Virus record (IMG/VR): IMGVR_UViG_3300042451_000105
Coordinates: 1 to 64,000 of that record
Reading direction: 5' to 3' (one strand)
Length of the DNA: 64,000 bases
DNA from: a virus
Of this stretch, positions 9,197-33,949 are shown piece by piece. Position 1 is the first letter of the stretch; each line of letters starts with the position of its first letter. Below the pieces are notes generated by a model. The model was not told the DNA's origin. It worked only from the letters and a program-made list of their open reading frames with translations, and searched no databases. The translations under genes were made by a program, and so were the position numbers.

Positions 9197-9652
9197 ATGA
9201 AAGAAACAATAAAAAGTGAAGAAGTAGAGGAAGAAATTGCAAAATTTAAAAAGCAATTTCAGGAAAAACACGGCATTAAACTAATTGTATTATCTCCTGC
9301 AGATAATATAAATAGGCTTACAATACCGGAAACAGCTGAGATTATTAATAGACACCTGGTTAAGTATAGTGCACTGCATTATAAAGCACCGGCTAAAAAG
9401 AAATCTAGAAGAGAGGACACCGTTATTCACTCACAGGCATTCTGTAAGATCTGTAAAGATTTTAATTATGGACCTAGTGAAATAGCAAGATTTCTTGATA
9501 AAGATCATAGTACCGTTATATACTCTATAAGAAAAGCAAGTGACTTATTATCTATAAATGATAACCGGTTCTTGACTGTATATAATTCTGTTAAACGAGA
9601 GATAATAAATAAAATGTATGGAAGAGATATTCAATATTCTGATTCAGAATAA
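9197..9652 (+). CDS. DnaA domain IV-like DNA-binding protein
   Basis: Residues 75-120 resemble the C-terminal helix-turn-helix domain of DnaA: FCKICKDFNYGPSEIARFLDKDHSTVIYSIRKA matches the signature where DHTTV(L/I)xAxRK contacts the DnaA box. There is no AAA+ domain. The N-terminal 70 residues are a charged helix with a basic patch (KAPAKKKSRRED) before the HTH. It is the first gene of the replication operon, so an origin-binding or operon-regulating role is the natural inference. A second protein of this kind closes the operon at 22582. Confidence 0.7.
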   Translation: MKETIKSEEVEEEIAKFKKQFQEKHGIKLIVLSPADNINRLTIPETAEIINRHLVKYSALHYKAPAKKKSRREDTVIHSQAFCKICKDFNYGPSEIARFLDKDHSTVIYSIRKASDLLSINDNRFLTVYNSVKREIINKMYGRDIQYSDSE

Positions 9653-22347: not shown

Positions 22348-22598
22348 TTAATATAGAAAAACAACCGATTCACAAGACTGAGGTCTTTATTCACAATGGT
22401 ACTTACATAACTAAGGATGCATGGGAAGATGAGATAGATTTAACACCCTATCCTTTCTCATGCACACTTAGAATAGATCATCTACAACAATCTGTTACTT
22501 GTACTGTGGTTTGGCCACAACTAAAGCCACCTGGTACAGCTGATATAGAAGTAGAGATTGAGAAAAAATTAAAAAAGATTTATGTCAATCCTGAATGA
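22344..22598 (+). CDS. Small hypothetical protein (84 aa)
   Basis: Not recognised. A beta-rich small protein with EVFIHNGTYI, SCTLRIDH and VTCTVVWPQ strands, then an acidic helix at the end. Start ATG 22344 forms an ATGA overlap with the polymerase stop; an upstream in-frame start inside the polymerase gene is less likely. A processivity or polymerase-associated role is only a guess from position. Confidence 0.5.
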   Translation: MINIEKQPIHKTEVFIHNGTYITKDAWEDEIDLTPYPFSCTLRIDHLQQSVTCTVVWPQLKPPGTADIEVEIEKKLKKIYVNPE

Positions 22599-23076
22599 AA
22601 AAGAAACATTAAAGATCCAGGTGCATAATTTAAAATTAGCACTTAGAAGAAAAGAAGAACAACTTACTAAGATTAAGGAAGAATATAGTAATGAGTTACA
22701 AAAGGTAAAGAAAGAGTACGGGATAAAACTATTACATCTACGTATTACTCTCTCACCTAAAAAGGAATTAACAGATAATGTTGTACCCTTGCTTTGTAAT
22801 ATACTACATTCTGTAACAGGTGTATCTGCTAAAGAGATATTAAGTAAGTCCCGTAAAAGAGATTACATTATACCTAGGTATGTGATTATTCATATACTTA
22901 GATTAGAAGGTAAAACACTCCAATTTATTGGAAAAACAATTGGTAATCAGCATCACGCAACTATTATACACGCTATTAGAAATGTAGAAGACTGGCATAC
23001 ATATCCGGATTACTACAAGAAAGAAGTGGAAATTTATAATAAAACAAAGAAATTGTTTGAAGAAGTGAAAAACTGA
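22582..23076 (+). CDS. Second DnaA domain IV-like DNA-binding protein
   Basis: Residues 1-60 form a coiled coil (KETLKIQVHNLKLALRRKEEQLTKIKEEYSNE region, heptad pattern). Residues 75-135 match the DnaA domain IV helix-turn-helix: YVIIHILRLEGKTLQFIGKTIG, then HHATIIHAIRN in the DnaA-box contact position. There is no ATPase domain. The coiled coil suggests a dimer. It is the second such protein in the replication block, so the phage may use two origin or promoter binders with different specificity. A promoter and a strong hairpin follow directly. Confidence 0.65.
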   Translation: MSILNEKETLKIQVHNLKLALRRKEEQLTKIKEEYSNELQKVKKEYGIKLLHLRITLSPKKELTDNVVPLLCNILHSVTGVSAKEILSKSRKRDYIIPRYVIIHILRLEGKTLQFIGKTIGNQHHATIIHAIRNVEDWHTYPDYYKKEVEIYNKTKKLFEEVKN

Positions 23077-25378: not shown

Positions 25379-25525
25379 TTATCTACCTTGACCACGATAT
25401 TTTGATTCAGGTGTAGCTTTTGGTCCAACGGATTTATGAGCCTTACCTTTTTTCTTATTTACATTTTTAGGTGCAAGGCTTTTAGCTAAACTAGTTCCGC
25501 CTTTTTTAGTTTTTGTTGCTGCCAT
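25379..25525 (-). CDS. Tiny basic protein, likely nucleic-acid-binding (48 aa)
   Basis: A 48-residue frame, starting MAATKTKKGGTSL and ending KSKYRGQGR-like (ESKYRGQGR), with net charge near +14 and no hydrophobic core. Arg/Lys/Gly composition suggests binding to DNA or RNA. It overlaps the end of the upstream secreted-protein gene by 20 bases and precedes the dcd promoter. Unknown family. Confidence 0.6.
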   Translation of the reverse strand: MAATKTKKGGTSLAKSLAPKNVNKKKGKAHKSVGPKATPESKYRGQGR

Positions 25526-25967
25526 ATATATAATATACAGCATTTTTTAAGGATTGCTGCATAGTCTTGTAAAAAACCTTTTTGTTATGTGGTATACCAG
25601 ATACCTCAACAAACATGGCATTCACAAACATTGTTTTAGTAGCAGTACCCATATAGGTTTTGCCATCAATAACAACTTTAGTTGTAATAATATATTGTCT
25701 CTTTAAAAACTGCAATCCTACAATATTTAGTAATTGTTCCGGCATTGCAATTGATACAATCTCTCCAGATACAATACTTCCGGAATCACATAGACTATAT
25801 TTATCAGAGATTAACTCTTCTAGTGTTGCCTTAGCACCAAACTCTACAGGCCTGTCTAGTAAATACTTTACAGTAGCAGTGTTAGAAACAGTGTCAACTT
25901 TGTAGCATTGAGCACTCAGAGAAGTCATCATAATGACTAAAGCGGAAAGTATAAATAGTTTTTTCAT
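25506..25967 (-). CDS. Secreted hypothetical protein (153 aa)
   Basis: Starts with a clear Sec signal peptide (MKKLFILSALVIMMTSLSA, cleavage before Gln in SAQ). The mature part has beta-strand-rich stretches (IVSGEIVSIAMPEQLLNIVGL, RQYIITTKVVIDGKTYMG) and a helical end. Not recognised. It is the last of the four exported products of the envelope module downstream of the CsgG-like promoter. ATG lies one base after the neighbouring stop. Confidence 0.6.
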   Translation of the reverse strand: MKKLFILSALVIMMTSLSAQCYKVDTVSNTATVKYLLDRPVEFGAKATLEELISDKYSLCDSGSIVSGEIVSIAMPEQLLNIVGLQFLKRQYIITTKVVIDGKTYMGTATKTMFVNAMFVEVSGIPHNKKVFYKTMQQSLKNAVYYIYGSNKN

Positions 25968-25968
25968 G

Positions 25969-27120
25969 TTAGTAGGTTACTGCTCCAGAGTATCCCGGAG
26001 CTATTAAATATAGATTTAAAGTTCCTCCACTAGTTAAAGTAGAAGTTGAGAAGGTAGTTATTCCTGGATATGTAGTACGCACATTACCAGTAGAAGAAGA
26101 GATTGTATTGTACTCAGTAGCTGTAAATATTCTTACATCAGAGGCTAACCTCCATCTAGTAAATCTTCCTGACTTCCTAGCAGCTACATAATACTTGTCT
26201 GCAATGTTTAATCTTCCGTCATCATTAACATCAAATCTGTGATAAGATAATCCATTGACTGTAGACTTACCTAAGATAATATTAGATACTGTTTGAATAT
26301 CTGTGCTAGTGTAAGCCTGAATTCTTGTAGGTACATCTACTTGTATATACCATTGCGTACTTGCAGTAGTGGTTCTAGAGAAAGCATAGTATCCTGAAGA
26401 GTTAGTATACGCTGTAGCATCTAAAGTCCAAGAAGAGGTTGTAGTAGTTATTGTCCCTACTTCAGAAGATTGATAAGAATGTGCAGATTGCGAAGGTCTT
26501 CTCCAGATAAGATATAATCCATCTCCTCCAGAGTATTCTTGCATGCGTGCAATAAACGTATAAGAAGTACCTGCGGTTAAACTCACACTACCGTATTTGT
26601 AAGTACCTACTCCTTTACCTCCATAGTATTCAATAATACTTCCTGTGTTTACTAACCACAAATCTGATCCATCATCAGAAGTCATACCAAAAGAATAGGT
26701 GCCAGTTTCTGCAGGGGTAAAAGTAAAACTTACTTCTGTAGCATAGTAATCTCCACTACTAGGAACACTAGCACCTGCAGAAGTTAATGTACTATAAGTT
26801 CCAAAATTTAAAGAAGAGTTACCCGACATTGTAGTTGTTGACCACAAACTAGTGTGAGAGTAACTTGTGTTAAAACACCTATCCATTTCTGATCTCGTAG
26901 AAGGATAAGTAGAGTACTGTGTGGTAGCACCAGTTCCATTATGAGTTCTATAAACCTTTACTGTAGTAGAGTTATTTCCTGTAGTAGTTGTTGTTCTTTT
27001 ATAAAGCTTCACAGGAACGTTTATAGCAGCACCTCCATTAGCACTGTACATATATCCTGAGTAAGTGAATTGTGCACTCAGTGCGTTCACAAAGAAGAAT
27101 AGAACAATAACCCACCTCAT
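25969..27120 (-). CDS. Secreted PA14-like protein with dockerin-like module
   Basis: Signal peptide MRWVIVLFFFVNALSAQ. Residues about 105-215 (VSFTFTPAETGTYSFGMTSDDGSDLWL, then TSYTFIARMQEYSGGDGLYLIWRRP) match the PA14 carbohydrate-binding beta-barrel. Residues about 270-320 hold a dockerin-like segment: TDIQTVSNIILGK, then the EF-hand loop DVNDDGRLNIAD and RKSGRFTRW. A Thr/Ser-rich tail follows, with no T9SS sorting domain at the end. The dockerin-like part and what follows are clearly related to the T9SS-targeted protein at 31611-33503. It would be secreted to the periplasm or beyond and bind glycans and calcium. Confidence 0.7.
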   Translation of the reverse strand: MRWVIVLFFFVNALSAQFTYSGYMYSANGGAAINVPVKLYKRTTTTTGNNSTTVKVYRTHNGTGATTQYSTYPSTRSEMDRCFNTSYSHTSLWSTTTMSGNSSLNFGTYSTLTSAGASVPSSGDYYATEVSFTFTPAETGTYSFGMTSDDGSDLWLVNTGSIIEYYGGKGVGTYKYGSVSLTAGTSYTFIARMQEYSGGDGLYLIWRRPSQSAHSYQSSEVGTITTTTSSWTLDATAYTNSSGYYAFSRTTTASTQWYIQVDVPTRIQAYTSTDIQTVSNIILGKSTVNGLSYHRFDVNDDGRLNIADKYYVAARKSGRFTRWRLASDVRIFTATEYNTISSSTGNVRTTYPGITTFSTSTLTSGGTLNLYLIAPGYSGAVTY

Positions 27121-28589
27121 ATCAATAGCTTTGCTCCCATTAAGATTTGAAAGTTTAAGATATCCTGTCCTGCTACGTAAGTTCCTCCTCCTGTAATACC
27201 TAAGCCAAAAGTCTTGGTCATTTTGTAGGTAAAGTTAAAGAAAGGAATTACAATAGGCTTAGCTTCAAATAAAGACTCTGTATAATATTTAGAGTAGGGA
27301 GAATAGATTCCTGCTGCAATAATTGTAGCATCTATATTCTTAGTAAGTTTTCCCTTGTACATAAATCCACCTATAGCAATTGTAGAAATCATCTCTTCTC
27401 CAAATAATTTACCATAGGTTCCAGCTGCTCCGTAAAGTGCTGTAAAGTTTTTAACCGAGTTTACTCTTACAAACAAGAGTGTGTTTGATATTGATTTAGG
27501 CATCAGACTTAAACCATCTGAAACAACACTAATGTGTTTGTTGCCTTTTTTGTTTGCTCCTATCCAAGAACGGACACAGGAGATATTACCGATTCTAGCA
27601 TTAAGCATGTAATCAGCTGAAAACCCAAGAGAAGAAGTACCATCTCCTTTTACTCTTGTAAAGGAGGCAGTACCTCTTGCATCTTGTGCTCCATCAGACT
27701 TAGTCTGAATACCAACTAAATCACCAGTTACTAATATTGCGGGCTTAGCAACTTCGGCTTTAGCTTTATTGGCTGCTTTCGCAGTACCACTAGACTGAGT
27801 CTTTTGTTGCTCAGTCTTAGTTTCTTCTACTTGTTGGTCTGTGGGTTTTTCTTCTTGTACTTGCGTTTTTTCTTCGGTTTTACCTCCGCTTCCTGAGCCG
27901 CCACCATTTCCGCTACTGTTGGAACTTCCACTACTACTTCCACTGGAACTTCCACTGGAGCCGGAGCCACTGCTTCCTCCATTACCTTCTCCGCTGCCAC
28001 TACCACTTCCGGTACTGGGGTTGGATCCGGAGTTATCCCCGCTTTGATTTTCTGGTGGATTTCCTCCACTGCTGTTGCTTCCAGTTTCTCCTGACGAGCC
28101 GCTAGAAGAATTAGAATTACTAGAGCTGTTACTAGTACGATTCCGAGAATTAGTTCTGCTGTCATTATTATTTGTTTTATTGGTTGTTCCTACGTTAGTT
28201 CCTGAAGAGGTGCTAGATCCTACATCTATATTTACACTACCAACATTTGAAATAGCCCCTAAGTTCATTACATTACTTACAATGTTTAGAGTCGTATTTG
28301 TTGTGGTAGTTGTAGTAGTAGTTACTCCAACTCCTTGACAGGGTGATGTATTTTTATACTTCAAATATACACTATTTATCCAATTGTCAAATGTTCCGTC
28401 TTGTAATTCTGTATAAGAGAATGTTTTAACCTGTCCATAGTAAGCAATTACTATAGGACTAGACATGTCAGCATTAATAAATTTAAGCTCTTGTGTACAG
28501 GGATCTGTATAAGAATAGATAAAGCCCTGCCCATTTACGGACAGAGCTATTATCATAAATAGGATTAGTATCTTAGTTTTTAAATACAC
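27117..28589 (-). CDS. Outer-membrane-barrel-like protein with Ser/Gly linker
   Basis: Signal peptide at residues 1-20 (ending VNGQ). A folded N-terminal domain covers about 21-90. A long Ser/Gly/Asn linker (130-245) and a charged Gln/Lys/Glu stretch (245-285) follow. The C-terminal 200 residues are amphipathic beta strands ending in TFGLGITGGGTYV...FQILMGAKLLI, as expected for an outer-membrane barrel. A different-frame gene is nested inside the linker (27827-28165). It is coupled to the CsgG-like gene by a 17-base overlap. The role is unknown, but it is placed to act in or at the outer membrane. Confidence 0.55.
   Translation of the reverse strand: MYLKTKILILFMIIALSVNGQGFIYSYTDPCTQELKFINADMSSPIVIAYYGQVKTFSYTELQDGTFDNWINSVYLKYKNTSPCQGVGVTTTTTTTTNTTLNIVSNVMNLGAISNVGSVNIDVGSSTSSGTNVGTTNKTNNNDSRTNSRNRTSNSSSNSNSSSGSSGETGSNSSGGNPPENQSGDNSGSNPSTGSGSGSGEGNGGSSGSGSSGSSSGSSSGSSNSSGNGGGSGSGGKTEEKTQVQEEKPTDQQVEETKTEQQKTQSSGTAKAANKAKAEVAKPAILVTGDLVGIQTKSDGAQDARGTASFTRVKGDGTSSLGFSADYMLNARIGNISCVRSWIGANKKGNKHISVVSDGLSLMPKSISNTLLFVRVNSVKNFTALYGAAGTYGKLFGEEMISTIAIGGFMYKGKLTKNIDATIIAAGIYSPYSKYYTESLFEAKPIVIPFFNFTYKMTKTFGLGITGGGTYVAGQDILNFQILMGAKLLI
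27827..28165 (-). CDS. Nested overlapping gene: single-span membrane protein (112 aa)
   Basis: A second-frame reading on the same strand, lying completely inside the Ser/Gly-rich linker of the barrel-like gene. It looks like a real protein: N-terminal transmembrane helix (residues 4-22, ELILGIVLVTALVILILLAA), short helix, Pro/Val/Glu-rich stretch (50-88) and very basic end (KPKKKRKYKKK). This is the layout of a TonB-like or i-spanin-like inner-membrane protein. Upstream of the ATG is an A-rich leader. Doubt: VE/VP repeats may be a mere shadow of Ser/Gly codons in the other frame, though the hydrophobic N-terminus is hard to explain that way. Confidence 0.45.
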   Translation of the reverse strand: MTAELILGIVLVTALVILILLAARQEKLEATAVEEIHQKIKAGITPDPTPVPEVVVAAEKVMEEAVAPAPVEVPVEVVVEVPTVAEMVAAQEAEVKPKKKRKYKKKNPQTNK

Positions 28590-29268
28590 CTGACTTAATG
28601 AGATTTTGAATCACATTAGTGCAAGCAGTTTCAAGAGACTTACGGGTAGCTTTACCCACAGTACTTTGAGAGAATTTCATGTCATCTAAAGATTTTAAGA
28701 ATGATTCACCAGTTTTTGTAGATTCACCTTCACCAGATCCAATATAGATCTGACCTGTTTTAGCATCCACAAAGCGGACCTGTAAACGGATGAAGGTAGT
28801 AACCACAACCTTTGACTTAAGGCCATCAACTTGCTCGTCTTCATCAACAGCAAAATCAGCCACAGTAACGTAAACAAAGTAGTGAGCAGGTTTAATCTTA
28901 CCTTTTCCATCAATTGGCTCATCAAATACACCTTTTTTAGAGGCTTTAAATTGAGTAACCATTCTTTCTTTAATCTCTGATTTTTCTTCAGTGAATATAA
29001 ATCTGTTAGTTTCATCTAAATAATCTAGTACTGACTCAGCAAAACCAAGTCCTACATTCTTTTCCTGTAAAGCAGGATACAATGAAAGAACTTTTGTCAT
29101 GTCTACACTAACTACTTGTACTGTTTTCTTAATAGAATCAGTATAGGAAGAAACTGTAGAGATATCTTTACTCTCTACAACTTCCCCATCAGTTGTTGTT
29201 TTCATAGAACCGCAACCGGCTAATGTTATAACCACCAAGGCCATAAACTTATTGAACCATTTTTTCAT
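28573..29268 (-). CDS. CsgG-like lipoprotein
   Basis: Lipoprotein signal with lipobox LAGC (Cys19), so acylated and probably in the outer membrane. Residues 125-225 fit the CsgG family: HYFVYVTVADF, FIRLQVRFVDAKTGQIYIGSGEGES, then a helix with VGKATRKSLETACTNVIQNLI. CsgG forms an outer-membrane pore for curli secretion. Here no curli subunit is seen, but the next gene is a barrel-like outer membrane protein. It is the first gene after a good promoter and is coupled to the barrel gene. Confidence 0.7.
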   Translation of the reverse strand: MKKWFNKFMALVVITLAGCGSMKTTTDGEVVESKDISTVSSYTDSIKKTVQVVSVDMTKVLSLYPALQEKNVGLGFAESVLDYLDETNRFIFTEEKSEIKERMVTQFKASKKGVFDEPIDGKGKIKPAHYFVYVTVADFAVDEDEQVDGLKSKVVVTTFIRLQVRFVDAKTGQIYIGSGEGESTKTGESFLKSLDDMKFSQSTVGKATRKSLETACTNVIQNLIKSGVFKN

Positions 29269-29345: not shown

Positions 29346-29675
29346 TTACCATGGATCTTCTTCTTTAGGTTCAGGTTTAGCAGCAGGAGCAGCTGGTGCA
29401 GGTGCTTGTTTTTCAATCACACGTTCTTTAATAACTGTGTTTGTACCACCACCACTAGATTGCTTCTGTTGGTTTGTGTTGTTGTTCTGTAAGTTAATCA
29501 CAACAGGTGCACCGGGTGCAGCTTGTTCTGTTTTAGCTTCTTCTTTAGACTCTTCACCACCGCCTAAGTGGGTTGCAAACCAGGCACCCCCGGCTGTAAC
29601 AGCTGTAGTAACAGCACCAATAATTGCTTTCTTAGTTGCTGACATTACGCTTTCTTCTTGTTGTTCCTCAGACAT
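29346..29675 (-). CDS. Membrane-inserted low-complexity protein (109 aa)
   Basis: A hydrophobic Ala/Gly/Val-rich segment (residues 14-36, AIIGAVTTAVTAGGAWFATHLGG) is followed by a Glu/Lys/Ala stretch, an Asn/Gln-rich stretch (NLQNNNTNQQKQ), then Ala/Pro repeats and an acidic, Trp-tipped end. Not recognised; the shape suggests an inner membrane protein with an extended tail. It lies upstream of the CsgG-like promoter. Confidence 0.5.
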   Translation of the reverse strand: MSEEQQEESVMSATKKAIIGAVTTAVTAGGAWFATHLGGGEESKEEAKTEQAAPGAPVVINLQNNNTNQQKQSSGGGTNTVIKERVIEKQAPAPAAPAAKPEPKEEDPW

Positions 29676-29679
29676 AATA

Positions 29680-29940
29680 TTATTTTTGATTTATAAGTTC
29701 TTCTACGTATTTATCTCTTTGCTCCATTAAATGCTCATTACGTTCAAGCATTCTAGTTCTTTCATCATCAGTAAGTTTAAGGATTAGAGTTTCTTTCTCA
29801 TCTATCATCTTTTTGTACTCTTCCAACTGACTTTTAAAGTTCATGTTCTGGTAGTACAAAATGCCCACTAATAATATAATAGTAAAAGACTGTTCTTTCA
29901 GCTTCTCAAAAAATGTTTCACCAATAGATCCTTCTTTCAT
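29680..29940 (-). CDS. Membrane protein with coiled-coil tail (86 aa)
   Basis: A hydrophobic helix at residues 18-32 (SFTIILLVGILYY) is followed by a long charged coiled coil (35-86). This resembles small phage lysis accessory proteins such as holin partners or inner-membrane spanin components. Start ATG 29940 lies one base after the DUF2589-like gene stop, so the genes are expressed together. Confidence 0.5.
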   Translation of the reverse strand: MKEGSIGETFFEKLKEQSFTIILLVGILYYQNMNFKSQLEEYKKMIDEKETLILKLTDDERTRMLERNEHLMEQRDKYVEELINQK

Positions 29941-29941
29941 A

Positions 29942-30412
29942 TTATTTTTCTTGCCCTAATGCTTGTATATAAGAGTCAATGATTCTAGACACGGCTTCAG
30001 GTTTTTCATCAGCTTTAAATTTAACTTTAATTTTAGCCATTCCTGAAGCAGTAGGATTAACTCCTGAGTCTACTTCAATTCCTTTTATATTGTGTTCATA
30101 TCCCTTCTTCTTAAATAGTCCCAGTAAAGACTTCTTAAGACTAGATACTTCTTTCTCCTCATCCCCAAAAATTAATCTAGCTTCAAACTCTATGTCTAAC
30201 TCATCTAGTCCAATAGAAGAGTGATCTGCTAGAATATAAAGAGGCACTAATAACTCCTTGTCTCCAATCATAAAGTTTGTAACTTTAGGAGTACCATCCT
30301 CATTAAAGTAATTTCGTAGAGCATTAATGTGTTGTCTTTCACTAATACTCTGAGAAACCATAGCGGCCTCTAATAGACCGCCAACTAGTTCCTCAATGTT
30401 TAATCTTGCCAT
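29942..30412 (-). CDS. DUF2589-like protein B (156 aa)
   Basis: The order of motifs follows DUF2589 in a looser form: VPLYILADHSSIGLDELDIEFEARLIF in the centre (compare VPLxxLxxxPxxxIxxxDIxFxMEV), then SGMAKIKVKFKADEKPEAVSRIIDSYI at the end (compare AKYxVxVxAxQ..PEGLxRVLDxL). It is therefore a divergent paralogue of the next gene upstream. DUF2589 proteins have no known function. Two tandem copies suggest a heteromer. Confidence 0.6.
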   Translation of the reverse strand: MARLNIEELVGGLLEAAMVSQSISERQHINALRNYFNEDGTPKVTNFMIGDKELLVPLYILADHSSIGLDELDIEFEARLIFGDEEKEVSSLKKSLLGLFKKKGYEHNIKGIEVDSGVNPTASGMAKIKVKFKADEKPEAVSRIIDSYIQALGQEK

Positions 30413-30416
30413 ACTA

Positions 30417-30424
30417 CAAAACTA
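30417..30424 (-). promoter_or_regulatory. Possible -7 box before DUF2589-like gene B
   Basis: TAGTTTTG on the minus strand matches TAnnTTTG and ends four bases before the ATG at 30412. No good -33 box is seen. Weak on its own, but the same placement recurs at three other genes. Confidence 0.3.
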
Positions 30425-30438
30425 CTCAAATTTTCTGA

Positions 30439-31029
30439 TTAAGATTCTTTACTCAATGGAACCAAAGAAGGCTCTAACATTGCTGTAAGGAAGTCAGACA
30501 ATTTAAGCATACCTTCTGTTGGAGGCAACTGTTCTGCGTGTACTTTTACTTCGTACTTAGCTGAGTTATCTGTTTGTCTAGTATTCTCACGGTGAGAACT
30601 TACGCTACCAGATACTTTAGCATTAAAACTCATACCCCACCATTTGCCACCTGCAGATACTTCGTAAGCTGTTTGAGAATCATTAGATTCTTTAGACATG
30701 TCTGAGGTTTTTACTTCCATAGTAAAGTTAATATCAGCAGAAGTAATTGCTAAAGAAGGCAATGGAACTAAAGGAAGCATAGGAACTTTACTGTAAACAG
30801 TTTTAAGTTCTTGGATTCCTGTATCTCCATCTGTAAATACACGTTGCATTTCTACGTCAAGTGAGCGTGCAACATTAGCATCACCTTTTTTCTCAAAAGC
30901 TACCTCAGAGATGTATCTCCAAGTTACTTCATTTAATTTAGCTTGTCCTTTTGCCATTCCGACAATAGGGCTTACAATAAGGTCTTCAATAGGAAGTCCT
31001 CTAAATTGATCTGCAATTGAATCTGCCAT
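30439..31029 (-). CDS. DUF2589 family protein A (196 aa)
   Basis: Good pattern match to DUF2589: GLPIEDLIVSPIVGMAKGQAKLNEVTWRYI at the start, then VPMLPLVPLPSLAITSADINFTMEVKTS (about 84-111), MSFNAKVSGSVSSHRENTRQTDNSAKYEVKVHAEQLPPTEGMLKLSDFL. These are the conserved blocks of the family, which has no assigned function. It is followed by a divergent second copy and preceded by a zinc-ribbon gene and a membrane protein gene, a cassette I also associate with bacterial DUF2589 loci. It may bind a partner surface or form a complex with the second copy. Confidence 0.75.
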   Translation of the reverse strand: MADSIADQFRGLPIEDLIVSPIVGMAKGQAKLNEVTWRYISEVAFEKKGDANVARSLDVEMQRVFTDGDTGIQELKTVYSKVPMLPLVPLPSLAITSADINFTMEVKTSDMSKESNDSQTAYEVSAGGKWWGMSFNAKVSGSVSSHRENTRQTDNSAKYEVKVHAEQLPPTEGMLKLSDFLTAMLEPSLVPLSKES

Positions 31030-31057
31030 AATTTATATATTAGTTTGTTTTATTTGG

Positions 31058-31261
31058 TTATTTAAATTTAACTGTACCACTGTACGATTTCTTGACACTT
31101 TCTATTTCTTTAATTGCAGAATAAAAGGAAGTTTTTATTTCTTCATTTATTGTGAAGTTAAAGATAGTGCTGCAGTGTGGACATCCTGATTTAGGATTCT
31201 TTAAGATAAACTTTAGGTCTAAGCCTAAAGGTTCTTTACACATAGGACAGGGTATAGCCAT
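31058..31261 (-). CDS. Zinc-ribbon protein of the DUF2589 cassette (67 aa)
   Basis: Two knuckles, CPMC (residues 5-8) and CPHC (residues 31-34), about 22 residues apart, with the intervening GLDLKFIL strand, make a zinc ribbon. A soluble helical end (IKTSFYSAIKEIESVKKSY) follows. It lies between the membrane protein and the two DUF2589-type genes, with two bases to the upstream stop, so it probably works with them. Confidence 0.65.
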   Translation of the reverse strand: MAIPCPMCKEPLGLDLKFILKNPKSGCPHCSTIFNFTINEEIKTSFYSAIKEIESVKKSYSGTVKFK

Positions 31262-31263
31262 AA

Positions 31264-31614
31264 TTAAGAGTTATTTGGGTTAGATAATGATTCTCCGTCT
31301 TCTTCATCTACCTTCTGAATTAACATTTTGTCACGGTCTTCTGAGTTAAACCAGTAGTCAACTACCTTGTTTAAGTTACCTACAAAGGCACCAAAAAGAA
31401 TAAGTAACATCTCTTTCCAGTTTTCTTGGATTTCTATTCCAAAAAATACTGCAGAATTAATACCAAGGATAATAAAGAAGAACAAACCTAATACAATAGC
31501 AGTAATCTTCCAACGATTAGCCTGCATTTGTTGTAGCATGTAATAGAATCTGTTCTTAGGATCTACTACTACTGGTTCTGCTTGGTTAAGACCAAGTGCT
31601 TTTTTAATGTTCAT
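31264..31614 (-). CDS. Two-span membrane protein (116 aa)
   Basis: Transmembrane helices at about 36-57 (ITAIVLGLFFFIILGINSAVFF) and 66-83 (WKEMLLILFGAFVGNLNKVV), then an acidic tail. The second helix with GAFVGNLNKVVDYWFNS resembles holin-like sequences with the conserved Gly/Asn/Lys helix end. It is coupled to the T9SS-targeted gene by ATGA, so both are translated from one message. It could be a holin or an assembly platform for the DUF2589 pair. Confidence 0.55.
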   Translation of the reverse strand: MNIKKALGLNQAEPVVVDPKNRFYYMLQQMQANRWKITAIVLGLFFFIILGINSAVFFGIEIQENWKEMLLILFGAFVGNLNKVVDYWFNSEDRDKMLIQKVDEEDGESLSNPNNS

Positions 31615-33503
31615 TTGTTTACGACAATTTTAGAATGTAATACTTCATGCTCTGTTACTACAGTAAGTACATATACACCATCTGAGAGACGATCTAAATT
31701 AGCACTATACTTGTATTTACCTGCAGGCATCTTCTCTTTTAAAATAGTCTGTATGCGTCTTCCTACCTCATCAGAGATAGCTACGTCTACATCAGCATCT
31801 TGCTTGATCTGGAATTGGATCTGTACTGCTCCATCTGTAGGATTAGGAAATACGATAATAGAGTTAAGATCATTTAAAGAAACAACTCCTTTGTTAATCC
31901 TACGTACTTCAATGATACCCATAGCAGGAGTAATGTTCATATCTTTAGACTTAGCATCACCTACGTATTTAGCACCAGTCCATAAAGCTGCAGTAGCCCA
32001 AGAGTCTTGTGGCTTCTTAGCAATAAACTGAAGGGTAAATACTTGCTCTCCATCATTTAAGAGGTTTTCGTTAGTTAAGTCAGCACCTCCCCAAGATACT
32101 GTACCGTTAGAAGGGTTTAAGTAAGAAGTCCACTTCATCATCTTCTCGGTATTTTCTACTTTCTTAAACTCTAAGTAAGCAGTATCATAACGTAAATCTA
32201 ATTGAAGTGCACCCAACTGCTTGCCATCTGTAAGAACTTTAACAGGAACGTTAACTAAGTTACCTTCATCTACAGTTACTTTAGGCATGTTAATCTCAAT
32301 AGTTTCTGCAGGAAAATCGTAACTTACAGTCTCATCAATGATGTAACGCTTAGCATTAGCTGGGTTAGTAATCTTGATAGGAGTCAAACGGGCCATCTTA
32401 AAACCGGTAGAGTTAGCATCTCCTTTAACAGCTACGTAGTAGGTGATAGAATCACGACCATCAATAGTGTAGTTAAAGTTGTTAATAGTAGAGTAAGTAG
32501 AAGTTAAGTTAGTAGCTGATCCGTTAATTGAATTGTATTCAGCAACTGTAAAGAACATTACATCTTTCTTAGAGTTAGGCCAAGCTGAGAATCTACCTGC
32601 TAAACGTCCGTACACAGAGTATACGTCAGCAATAGTAATAGAGCCATCAGTGTTGTTTACATCCATTGTGTAGTAGTCAAATCCAGAAGGAGTGTATTGA
32701 GCTAAGATAGATTGGTTAATCTTCTGTGCATCTGCAGTAGAGAACACGTTACCAGGAGTCATTGTATCACCTTTAACTACCATACGTACATCCCAGTAAG
32801 TAGTATCTAAGAATTTACGGAATACTACAACACCACTAGAGTTAGTTGCTTTAGCTTCTACCTGAGTCCAAGATCCACTAGGAGCTTTCTTCTCTAAAGA
32901 CACCCACAAGTTCTTAGCGTCAGAACCTGTAACGTTTTTAAACTTAGCAGCAAATCTTAAAACTTTTTGGTTGAAACGACCACCGTAAGAATAAACTACC
33001 AATGTAGTATCGTTACCCCAGTTAGTAGCAGCTTTGTTAGCAAATGATTTAACACCTGCAACTTTCAAAGTTTTAATAGAATCTAAAGTATTCCATGTTG
33101 AGCTTCCTGCGTGCGTGAAGGTTAAATCAAAGGTAGCTCCGTTAGAATAGTTGTAAGTAGAATTAGATCCAGTGTAAGCCAAAGTTACAGTTAAGAATCC
33201 TTGTGAGTTACTATCTACGTACTGAAGATACTGATCTGTACTAGAGATCTTCAAAGAAGGAACTACAGCAGTAAATGCAGTGTTATCGTAGAATACACGG
33301 AATTGCATACCAGTGATCTTCTCTGAAGTAGAAGTGTTATAGAAATGTAAAGGTGCTACTGTCTGCCCTGTAGTAGTAGTAGCAACTTGGTAACCAGAAT
33401 CAATCACAACCCAGTGACCTGTACCTGGAGATGTGCTAGAACTTTGCGCAAACATTACTGTTGCAAACAAAGTAGTGACAAGTGAAGAGATAAATTTTTT
33501 CAT
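31611..33503 (-). CDS. T9SS-targeted cohesin/dockerin-like surface protein (630 aa)
   Basis: Signal peptide (residues 1-19, ending MFAQ). Cohesin-like domain about 25-160 (ITGMQFRVFYDNTAFTAV, then LTVTLAYTG). Beta-sandwich about 175-245 (transthyretin-like, with KNLWVSLEKKAP). Dockerin-like module about 250-305: FSTADAQKINQSILA, EF-hand loop DVNNTDGSITIAD, RLAGRFSAW. Second cohesin-like domain about 395-530 (VDEGNLVNVPVKVL, LGALQLDLRYD). The last 80 residues are a type A T9SS sorting domain: IVFPNPTDGAVQIQF, then DGVYVLTV and KIVVNK. That domain would be recognised by the host Bacteroidota secretion machine and lead to surface display. It overlaps the genes on both sides by four bases, so it belongs to the phage operon. 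Confidence 0.82.
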   Translation of the reverse strand: MKKFISSLVTTLFATVMFAQSSSTSPGTGHWVVIDSGYQVATTTTGQTVAPLHFYNTSTSEKITGMQFRVFYDNTAFTAVVPSLKISSTDQYLQYVDSNSQGFLTVTLAYTGSNSTYNYSNGATFDLTFTHAGSSTWNTLDSIKTLKVAGVKSFANKAATNWGNDTTLVVYSYGGRFNQKVLRFAAKFKNVTGSDAKNLWVSLEKKAPSGSWTQVEAKATNSSGVVVFRKFLDTTYWDVRMVVKGDTMTPGNVFSTADAQKINQSILAQYTPSGFDYYTMDVNNTDGSITIADVYSVYGRLAGRFSAWPNSKKDVMFFTVAEYNSINGSATNLTSTYSTINNFNYTIDGRDSITYYVAVKGDANSTGFKMARLTPIKITNPANAKRYIIDETVSYDFPAETIEINMPKVTVDEGNLVNVPVKVLTDGKQLGALQLDLRYDTAYLEFKKVENTEKMMKWTSYLNPSNGTVSWGGADLTNENLLNDGEQVFTLQFIAKKPQDSWATAALWTGAKYVGDAKSKDMNITPAMGIIEVRRINKGVVSLNDLNSIIVFPNPTDGAVQIQFQIKQDADVDVAISDEVGRRIQTILKEKMPAGKYKYSANLDRLSDGVYVLTVVTEHEVLHSKIVVNK

Positions 33504-33949
33504 TTTTTTATGTTATTTACAGCGTGTTCTATGAGCCAAGGCTCAGGATTTTCTAAGTTTTTTATAAAGCTAAGTTCATACATGTAGCAAAATGTCTCCT
33601 CTTTTTCCGGAATCATCTCTATACCTTTCTTTGCTATATAAAGATGTAAGCTTTCATGTACTAGAACTACAGCAATGTTATTTATAGAGTTTAGTTTAAG
33701 ATCGGCTACAGCTATGTAGATGTGACCTTTACCATTCTCTAGTTCACAAGAAGAGTAGGGACTTATCATAAAAGATACCTGAGAACAATTTGTATCAAGC
33801 ATCTTGTACTTATCTATGTCTACCTTCTTTATCAGTTGAATTGCTGAATCAACTTTTAAATCCCAACCGTCCCCAGCTTTGTCAATTTTGATTTGAGCAA
33901 AACAAGGGACGGCTAAGAATAAAAAGAGGTTAATTACTAACCCCTTCAT
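33500..33949 (-). CDS. Secreted zinc metallopeptidase-like protein (149 aa)
   Basis: Signal peptide of about 19 residues ending CFAQ. Residues 96-106 hold a zincin motif, VVLVHESLHLYIAKKG (HExxH), with a Glu-rich downstream helix (EKEETFCYMYELSF) that could give the third ligand. It is small for the class. The site suggests it cuts peptides in the periplasm or cell wall. It lies between the endolysin-like and T9SS-targeted genes and is coupled to the latter. Confidence 0.65.
   Translation of the reverse strand: MKGLVINLFLFLAVPCFAQIKIDKAGDGWDLKVDSAIQLIKKVDIDKYKMLDTNCSQVSFMISPYSSCELENGKGHIYIAVADLKLNSINNIAVVLVHESLHLYIAKKGIEMIPEKEETFCYMYELSFIKNLENPEPWLIEHAVNNIKK

Follow-up and report, generated by a model that had tools for sequence, protein, structure and literature searches.

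A conserved phage gene cassette encodes a cohesin-like scaffold with a type IX secretion sorting domain and may direct protein display on the host cell surface

RESULTS

The locus and its phage

The window analyzed here, a stretch of 64,000 nucleotides, comprises bases 1 to 64000 of an IMG/VR virus record (IMGVR_UViG_3300042451_000105) that is 80,821 bp in full. On its minus strand, an ORF of 630 codons (31611..33503), hereafter called the scaffold gene, shares 4 bp with the gene on either side (33500..33949 and 31264..31614), as a preliminary description of the DNA had reported. The features of the locus are as follows.

33500..33949, minus strand: secreted 149-aa protein with an HESLH motif (possible metallopeptidase), matching phrog_1365 (function unassigned) with an E value of 3e-4
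31611..33503, minus strand: scaffold, 630 aa, with a signal peptide (residues 1-20), cohesin 1 (~27-172), a CnaB/prealbumin-like beta domain followed by a dockerin-like module and a short C-terminal extension (~176-395), cohesin 2 (~400-535) and a sorting domain (551-629)
31617..31853, minus strand: type A C-terminal sorting domain of the type IX secretion system (T9SS) within the scaffold gene (TIGR04183, 38.2 bits on DNA)
31264..31614, minus strand: 116-aa membrane protein with two transmembrane (TM) helices, whose gene shares 4 bp with the scaffold gene
29680..31261, minus strand: optional four-gene insert coding for a zinc-ribbon-like protein of 67 aa, two DUF2589 proteins and a small membrane protein
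29346..29675, minus strand: small membrane protein of the cassette, with one TM helix and a charged C-terminal part containing INLQNNNTNQQ
28573..29268, minus strand: CsgG-like 231-aa lipoprotein with the lipobox LAGC, the most conserved partner gene
27117..28589, minus strand: secreted 490-aa protein with a signal peptide, a Cys-bearing N-terminal domain (Y-D-P-C-T motif) and a Ser/Gly-rich linker
25969..27120, minus strand: head protein, 383 aa, with a signal peptide, a PA14 head that seems to interrupt a CnaB-like domain, and a dockerin-like module with an extension
25506..25967, minus strand: secreted 153-aa protein, after the head gene

CrAss_Ring_1, CrAss_Ring_2 and the crAss muzzle protein (PF24228, PF25702 and PF25731) scored above their cut-offs elsewhere in the same record (L002). 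On the basis of these tail-ring and muzzle proteins, found on an 80.8-kb fragment, we assign the phage to Crassvirales or a close relative. A stray host gene or a chimeric contig was ruled out by the 4-bp overlaps, by more than 90 related phage contigs with constant gene order, and by the presence of the genes in an isolated Flavobacterium phage described below. The earlier view that this is a genuine phage gene thus holds. Rfam and tRNA scans of the 64-kb window gave no matches. Very large ORFs (1855, 3211, 1329 and 855 aa) separate the cassette from the tail genes (34909-58444, minus strand), and their products are possibly packaged in the virion. Two small proteins encoded on the plus strand (9197-9652 and 22582-23076) carry a motif resembling DnaA domain IV (DHSTVIYSIRKA and HHATIIHAIRNV).

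Modular composition of the scaffold

The scaffold starts with a typical predicted Sec signal peptide, MKKFISSLVTTLFATVMFAQ, which is hydrophobic and ends in FAQ, Q20 being invariant among 25 homologs. The preliminary description had seen this signal and, behind it, two cohesin-like domains and a dockerin-like module. Cohesin 2 was clearly recovered: the cohesin profile PF00963 matched the whole scaffold at 50.2 bits (cut-off 24.1), with the best stretch at residues 403-524, and a Foldseek search with the AlphaFold model aligned this domain with cohesins in the PDB at a TM score of 0.8, normalized by target. The scaffold and CsgG-like models were of low confidence (pLDDT 50 and 41), and the cohesin 2 match is the only result that we used from them. 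Cohesin 1 alone was borderline (23.6 versus 24.1 bits, E value 6e-5). Its region matched PF00963 in 11 of 14 relatives at an E value of at most 5 (best 7e-6), and an hhalign comparison of cohesin 1 with cohesin 2 gave no match.

The dockerin-like module has a canonical-looking calcium loop, DVNNTDGSITIAD, but it stayed below the Pfam cut-off for dockerin type I (PF00404; best 18.7 versus 22.9 bits) and possesses one loop instead of two F-hand calcium loops. We therefore call it dockerin-like. The loop of the scaffold itself carries a one-residue insertion. A profile search of the PDB with this module returned chance matches only, and no solved dockerin.

A single conserved sorting domain under purifying selection

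The preliminary description had proposed a profile search as a check on the type A sorting domain, and the domain was found by both models: TIGR04183 matched residues 551-629 at 35.8 bits (cut-off 23) and PF18962 (Por_Secre_tail) residues 551-628 at 38.9 bits (cut-off 27). The sorting-domain profile also weakly matched the C-terminal domain chains 8glk_D and 8glj_D in the PDB (E values 0.005 and 0.02). In the low-confidence AlphaFold model, this region contains a long helix at residues 573-591 and not a clean beta sandwich.

A first scan of IMG/VR yielded 91 stretches with scaffold relatives, of which 80 were kept (58-99% identical), and more than 90 IMG/VR contigs encode a scaffold. TIGR04183 matched all 25 aligned homologs, and a recognizable sorting domain ends each of 58 distinct full-length homologs. 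In the 80.8-kb record, the scaffold provides the sole TIGR04183 match. Exactly one match per record was likewise found in 21 of 21 long crAss-type or myovirus records and in 13 of 13 immuto-like or divergent records. That a phage might carry several T9SS cargoes, like the Cryophage, was ruled out by the one match in each of 35 records at the E value used. A SprA-like translocon (SprA_N) was not detected in 12 phage records, a weak result, as the positive control also gave no match.

Mean pairwise identity was 86% for cohesin 1, 85% for the dockerin-like module, 77% for cohesin 2 and 55% for the sorting domain, and the median pairwise dN/dS values were 0.07, 0.13, 0.14 and ~0.30, respectively. 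These values indicate that all modules are under purifying selection and that the tag drifts the most, as expected of a signal domain. They also bear on the possibility that abundant phage cargo acts as a decoy that saturates or jams the host T9SS, thereby stopping the export of surface adhesins and phage receptors. Such a role would account for T9SS dependence with no further function, and would suit a sorting domain that is single-copy and strictly conserved. However, that domain is the least conserved of the folded modules (55% versus 77-86% identity), and the stronger selection on the cohesins (dN/dS 0.07-0.14) argues that the passenger matters more than the tag, which makes a decoy quite improbable.

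The scaffold belongs to a cassette of fixed order

The genes around the scaffold follow a fixed order: the HESLH-motif secreted protein, the scaffold, the two-TM protein, the optional DUF2589 insert, the small membrane protein, the CsgG-like protein, the Ser/Gly-rich presumed-barrel protein and the head protein. The HESLH-motif gene is kept as the upstream neighbor in most fused cassettes, and its product might process the scaffold or its tag. Most fused cassettes have also kept the two-TM protein. The insert is highly conserved where present, which is in only a few cassettes; its two DUF2589 proteins matched PF11655 at 106.3 and 50.9 bits.

The CsgG-like protein is named so because its match to CsgG (PF03783) is subthreshold: 7 of 20 relatives matched, with a best E value of 0.015, and scores were below the cut-off in 11 of 11 records. 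When Escherichia coli CsgG was compared with the family by hhalign, the signal peptide alone matched. The 490-aa protein had no Pfam match. By eye, its C terminus, which ends in ILMGAKLLI, looks like an outer-membrane beta-barrel.

Searching with the CsgG-like gene yielded 77 loci, many lying on contigs found before. The barrel gene was present in all those with enough sequence, and a tagged scaffold was detected by HMM in 70; three of the loci were incomplete, which leaves four others. Two of these four, L191 and L195, encode a full scaffold whose divergent tail resembles a sorting domain by eye. Near the cassette, the same two loci code for another secreted protein of ~510 aa (L191 792-2336; L195 810-2336), the end of which also looks like a sorting domain by eye.

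Head domains are exchanged between nearly identical scaffolds

The head protein matched PA14 at 26.5 bits (cut-off 24) and Dockerin_1 at 17.1 bits (cut-off 22.9). Its module of beta domain, dockerin-like part and extension can be aligned with that of the scaffold, indicating homology. The head protein itself has no sorting domain, which counts against a role in display. A calcium-binding loop was found in 61 of 62 head proteins and in none of the shuffled sequences, although the proteins are homologous and hence not independent.

Heads vary widely. In the crAss-type set we counted 23 C-type lectins, 10 PA14 and 6 GEVED heads, together with two related types devoid of recognized domains (17+1, and 6), and the Pfam matches of other relatives include laminin-G with C-type lectin. 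No enzyme domain was matched among the heads examined (PA14, C-type lectin, GEVED, laminin-G and others). Different heads accompany scaffolds that are 93-98% identical, showing that they are swapped. At L088 (7642-9918), on the same 157-kb contig as L105, two different genes for head-dockerin-like proteins lie in tandem.

Swappable C-type lectin, PA14 and laminin-G heads recall the diversity of phage receptor-binding proteins, and the window has the tail genes upstream of the cassette, on the same strand. The proteins might then decorate new virions after their release at the surface, or be structural adhesins of the particle. Nevertheless, the scaffold, head and barrel proteins bear Sec signals and would thus leave the cytoplasm, where virions assemble, and crAss-like and contractile-tailed phages use the same cassette despite unrelated tails. 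Virion decoration is thus distinctly unlikely.

A split form in an isolated phage and two phage lineages

Flavobacterium phage immuto (MW353176), isolated on Flavobacterium sp. LMO8, carries a cassette in which the scaffold is split. It encodes a lectin-dockerin-like protein, a cohesin 1-dockerin-like protein and a cohesin 2-sorting domain protein, each with its own signal peptide. The latter matched PF18962 at 36.7 bits, and the calcium loop of the cohesin-dockerin protein is degenerate. Behind the split genes come the immuto homologs of three other cassette genes, those for the small membrane, CsgG-like and barrel proteins. The CsgG-like protein is 41-43% identical to its immuto homolog, and the barrel protein aligns with its counterpart at 28% identity; the two-TM protein was not detected in immuto. 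A gene similar to that of the small membrane protein occupies the matching position in immuto, L118 and L191, and in these three a secreted protein of a size similar to that of the 153-aa protein also comes after the cassette (homology by eye). Flavobacterium generally has a T9SS. About 20 further IMG/VR loci have the split form. Queries with the scaffold, the head, the CsgG-like protein and the cohesin-CTD protein found no cultured phage other than immuto. The immuto genes can be read as an anchoring scaffoldin, an adaptor scaffoldin and a head, i.e., a dockerin-bearing subunit. Fusion of the scaffold parts in one lineage, and their separation in another, implies that they act together.

The preliminary description had placed the gene in a lysis operon and its action late in infection. 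An endolysin-like gene (phrog_33083, E value 1e-12) is indeed found two genes upstream of the scaffold, but in immuto the cassette comes after replication and ribonucleotide reductase (RNR) genes. The cassette position thus differs between phage lineages, and late action is unsupported. The same observations bear on a role as a lysis aid, in which the exported proteins, the CsgG-like protein and the barrel would act late in infection to destabilize the outer membrane, with the T9SS tag serving simply to bring one of them there. In keeping with such a role, the cassette adjoins the endolysin-like gene in the window, a small membrane gene gave a weak spanin-like match (E value 0.05), and the passages on CsgGF in the description of phage Melnitz propose a function in lysis regulation (PMC9004378). 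However, it leaves the cohesin and dockerin parts and the exchangeable lectin-like heads unexplained, and the neighbors of the immuto cassette are replication rather than lysis genes. We regard a lysis aid as unlikely.

Ring or muzzle proteins of crAss phages were found in one set of records and a contractile tail sheath in another, which includes the split-form phages. Three sheath-bearing records (L049, L052 and L077) have fused scaffolds 76-78% identical to that of the window. In a quick tree of the fused scaffolds, midpoint rooted and with long outgroup branches, the classified crAss-like rows formed one clade (SH-aLRT 100) beside a clade of three sheath-bearing ones. We infer that one change of phage type suffices to explain this tree. 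When divergent sheath-bearing copies serve as the outgroup, a crAss-like phage probably acquired the cassette from a contractile-tailed one, the direction being tentative.

Cohesin, PA14, GEVED and sorting domains are typical of Bacteroidota secreted proteins. The cassette might therefore be a captured host set of adhesin or polysaccharide-binding genes, which the phages would retain by chance or because it helps the infected cell to take up nutrients. Yet one scan of 84,980 species genomes revealed no cellular relative, the sole match being a phage-like 16.5-kb contig in a metagenome-assembled genome (MAG), and conservation of the whole cassette together with its occurrence in two phage lineages argues for a phage function. 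A captured host set is accordingly very improbable. A cassette is also found on a contig binned as Sphingomonadaceae in GTDB (L084, RFPL01000028.1), which is probably a misbinned phage contig.

DISCUSSION

A proposed surface display

The domain content, conservation, selection and linkage of these genes, the swapping of heads and the presence of the cassette in two phage lineages are the observations on which we build our proposal. We favor, with moderate confidence, the view that the scaffold anchors a phage-encoded surface display, being exported by the host T9SS and holding glycan-binding heads through its cohesins. Sec would take the scaffold across the inner membrane. The host T9SS would then recognize its sorting domain and carry it through the outer membrane, after which it would be released or fixed at the cell surface. 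Given a valid type A sorting domain and the established biology of the T9SS, such a route to the surface is the natural inference. The architecture of the two proteins suggests that the scaffold cohesins hold the dockerin-like modules of the secreted head protein (25969-27120). The exchangeable part of the latter, be it a PA14, C-type lectin, GEVED, laminin-G or other head, may bind glycans on the host cell or its neighbors. In crAss-like phages, the equivalents of the anchoring and adaptor scaffoldins would be fused into one protein. The CsgG-like and presumed barrel proteins may form an outer-membrane component, perhaps exporting or seating the head protein.

The most likely benefit would be an altered surface of the infected cell, by which competing phages are blocked or infected cells and progeny are kept near new hosts. 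Both superinfection exclusion and "sibling capture" fit swappable glycan-binding heads. The preliminary description had named a block to superinfection or an altered glycan coat as possible benefits. The preliminary description had taken a single protein as the functional unit, but a multigene cassette with a separate dockerin-like, head-swapping partner is found instead. A broader reading, which we put forward tentatively and at slightly less than an even chance, is that of a mobile cassette of unrelated aquatic Bacteroidota phages that builds a cellulosome-like surface organelle from a T9SS-exported scaffold, interchangeable heads loaded by cohesin-dockerin pairing and a CsgG-like outer-membrane component.

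If the proposal is correct, phages remodel the exterior of the infected cell through the phylum-specific secretion machine of their host, with a modular scaffold and swappable lectins in place of a single exclusion protein. The cassette is common among the viral contigs searched and occurs in two unrelated lineages. Immuto and Flavobacterium sp. LMO8 form a cultivated pair in which the reason why Bacteroidota phages encode T9SS cargo can be tested directly, and the cassette offers concrete, testable functions for genes of crAss-like phages now annotated as hypothetical.

Comparison with known systems

We know of no earlier description of a phage-encoded cohesin-dockerin scaffold of this kind. 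In the open-access literature, we found no description of the cassette and no paper on cohesin or dockerin in bacteriophage genomes, and a single paper, from 2019, on the T9SS in crAss-like phages (PMC6949934). In that paper, the sections on crAss-BACON cluster 2 of de Jonge et al. note T9SS sorting domains near and within the ORFs. The likeness to our locus lies in sorting domains near or within secreted ORFs of gut phages studied alongside crAss-like phages. In contrast, those ORFs have BACON repeats, and the same sections propose no mechanism and describe no cohesin/dockerin cassette.

Phages also encode curli-type CsgGF operons, according to the relevant passages on pelagimyophages (PMC7029224), Melnitz (PMC9004378) and a marine Bacteroidetes virus (PMC7198788), and "sibling capture" is proposed for such genes in the first of these. 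Like our cassette, they provide outer-membrane secretion parts proposed to alter the infected-cell surface or lysis. Unlike it, they have no T9SS tag or cohesins reported in those passages, and the CsgG-like protein described here is a subthreshold match.

The homologous cassette of immuto (MW353175-MW353177) corresponds to genes 13-18 and differs from that of the window by its three-gene split form and its myovirus context. The annotation of immuto names cohesin and lectin domains, and a T9SS domain is absent from it. With cellulosomes, the cassette shares the cohesin fold and a chain of anchoring scaffoldin, adaptor scaffoldin and dockerin-bearing subunits. It departs from them by its presumed T9SS anchoring, its weak dockerin match and the lack of enzymes on the dockerin-like proteins: the heads examined include none of the plant-polysaccharide-degrading enzymes that bear dockerins in cellulosomes.

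The closest precedent concerns T9SS cargo, of which the preliminary description knew no phage example. Bellas et al. reported in 2020 that the Cryophage, a 76-kb Bacteroidetes phage, codes for three tagged cargo proteins (an endoglucanase, a GH39 and a PA14 protein) and proposed that it hijacks the T9SS for possible superinfection exclusion (PMC7468147); sorting domains had also been noted in crAss-BACON phages (PMC6949934). The Cryophage resembles the phages studied here in having proteins with type A sorting domains, one with PA14, and highly variable cargo. However, its three cargoes are independently tagged and cohesin is nowhere mentioned (PMC7468147), whereas here the tag is confined to a conserved scaffold, and an untagged dockerin-like partner bears the variable heads. 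Phage-encoded T9SS cargo being already known, the new element is the conserved multigene surface cassette.
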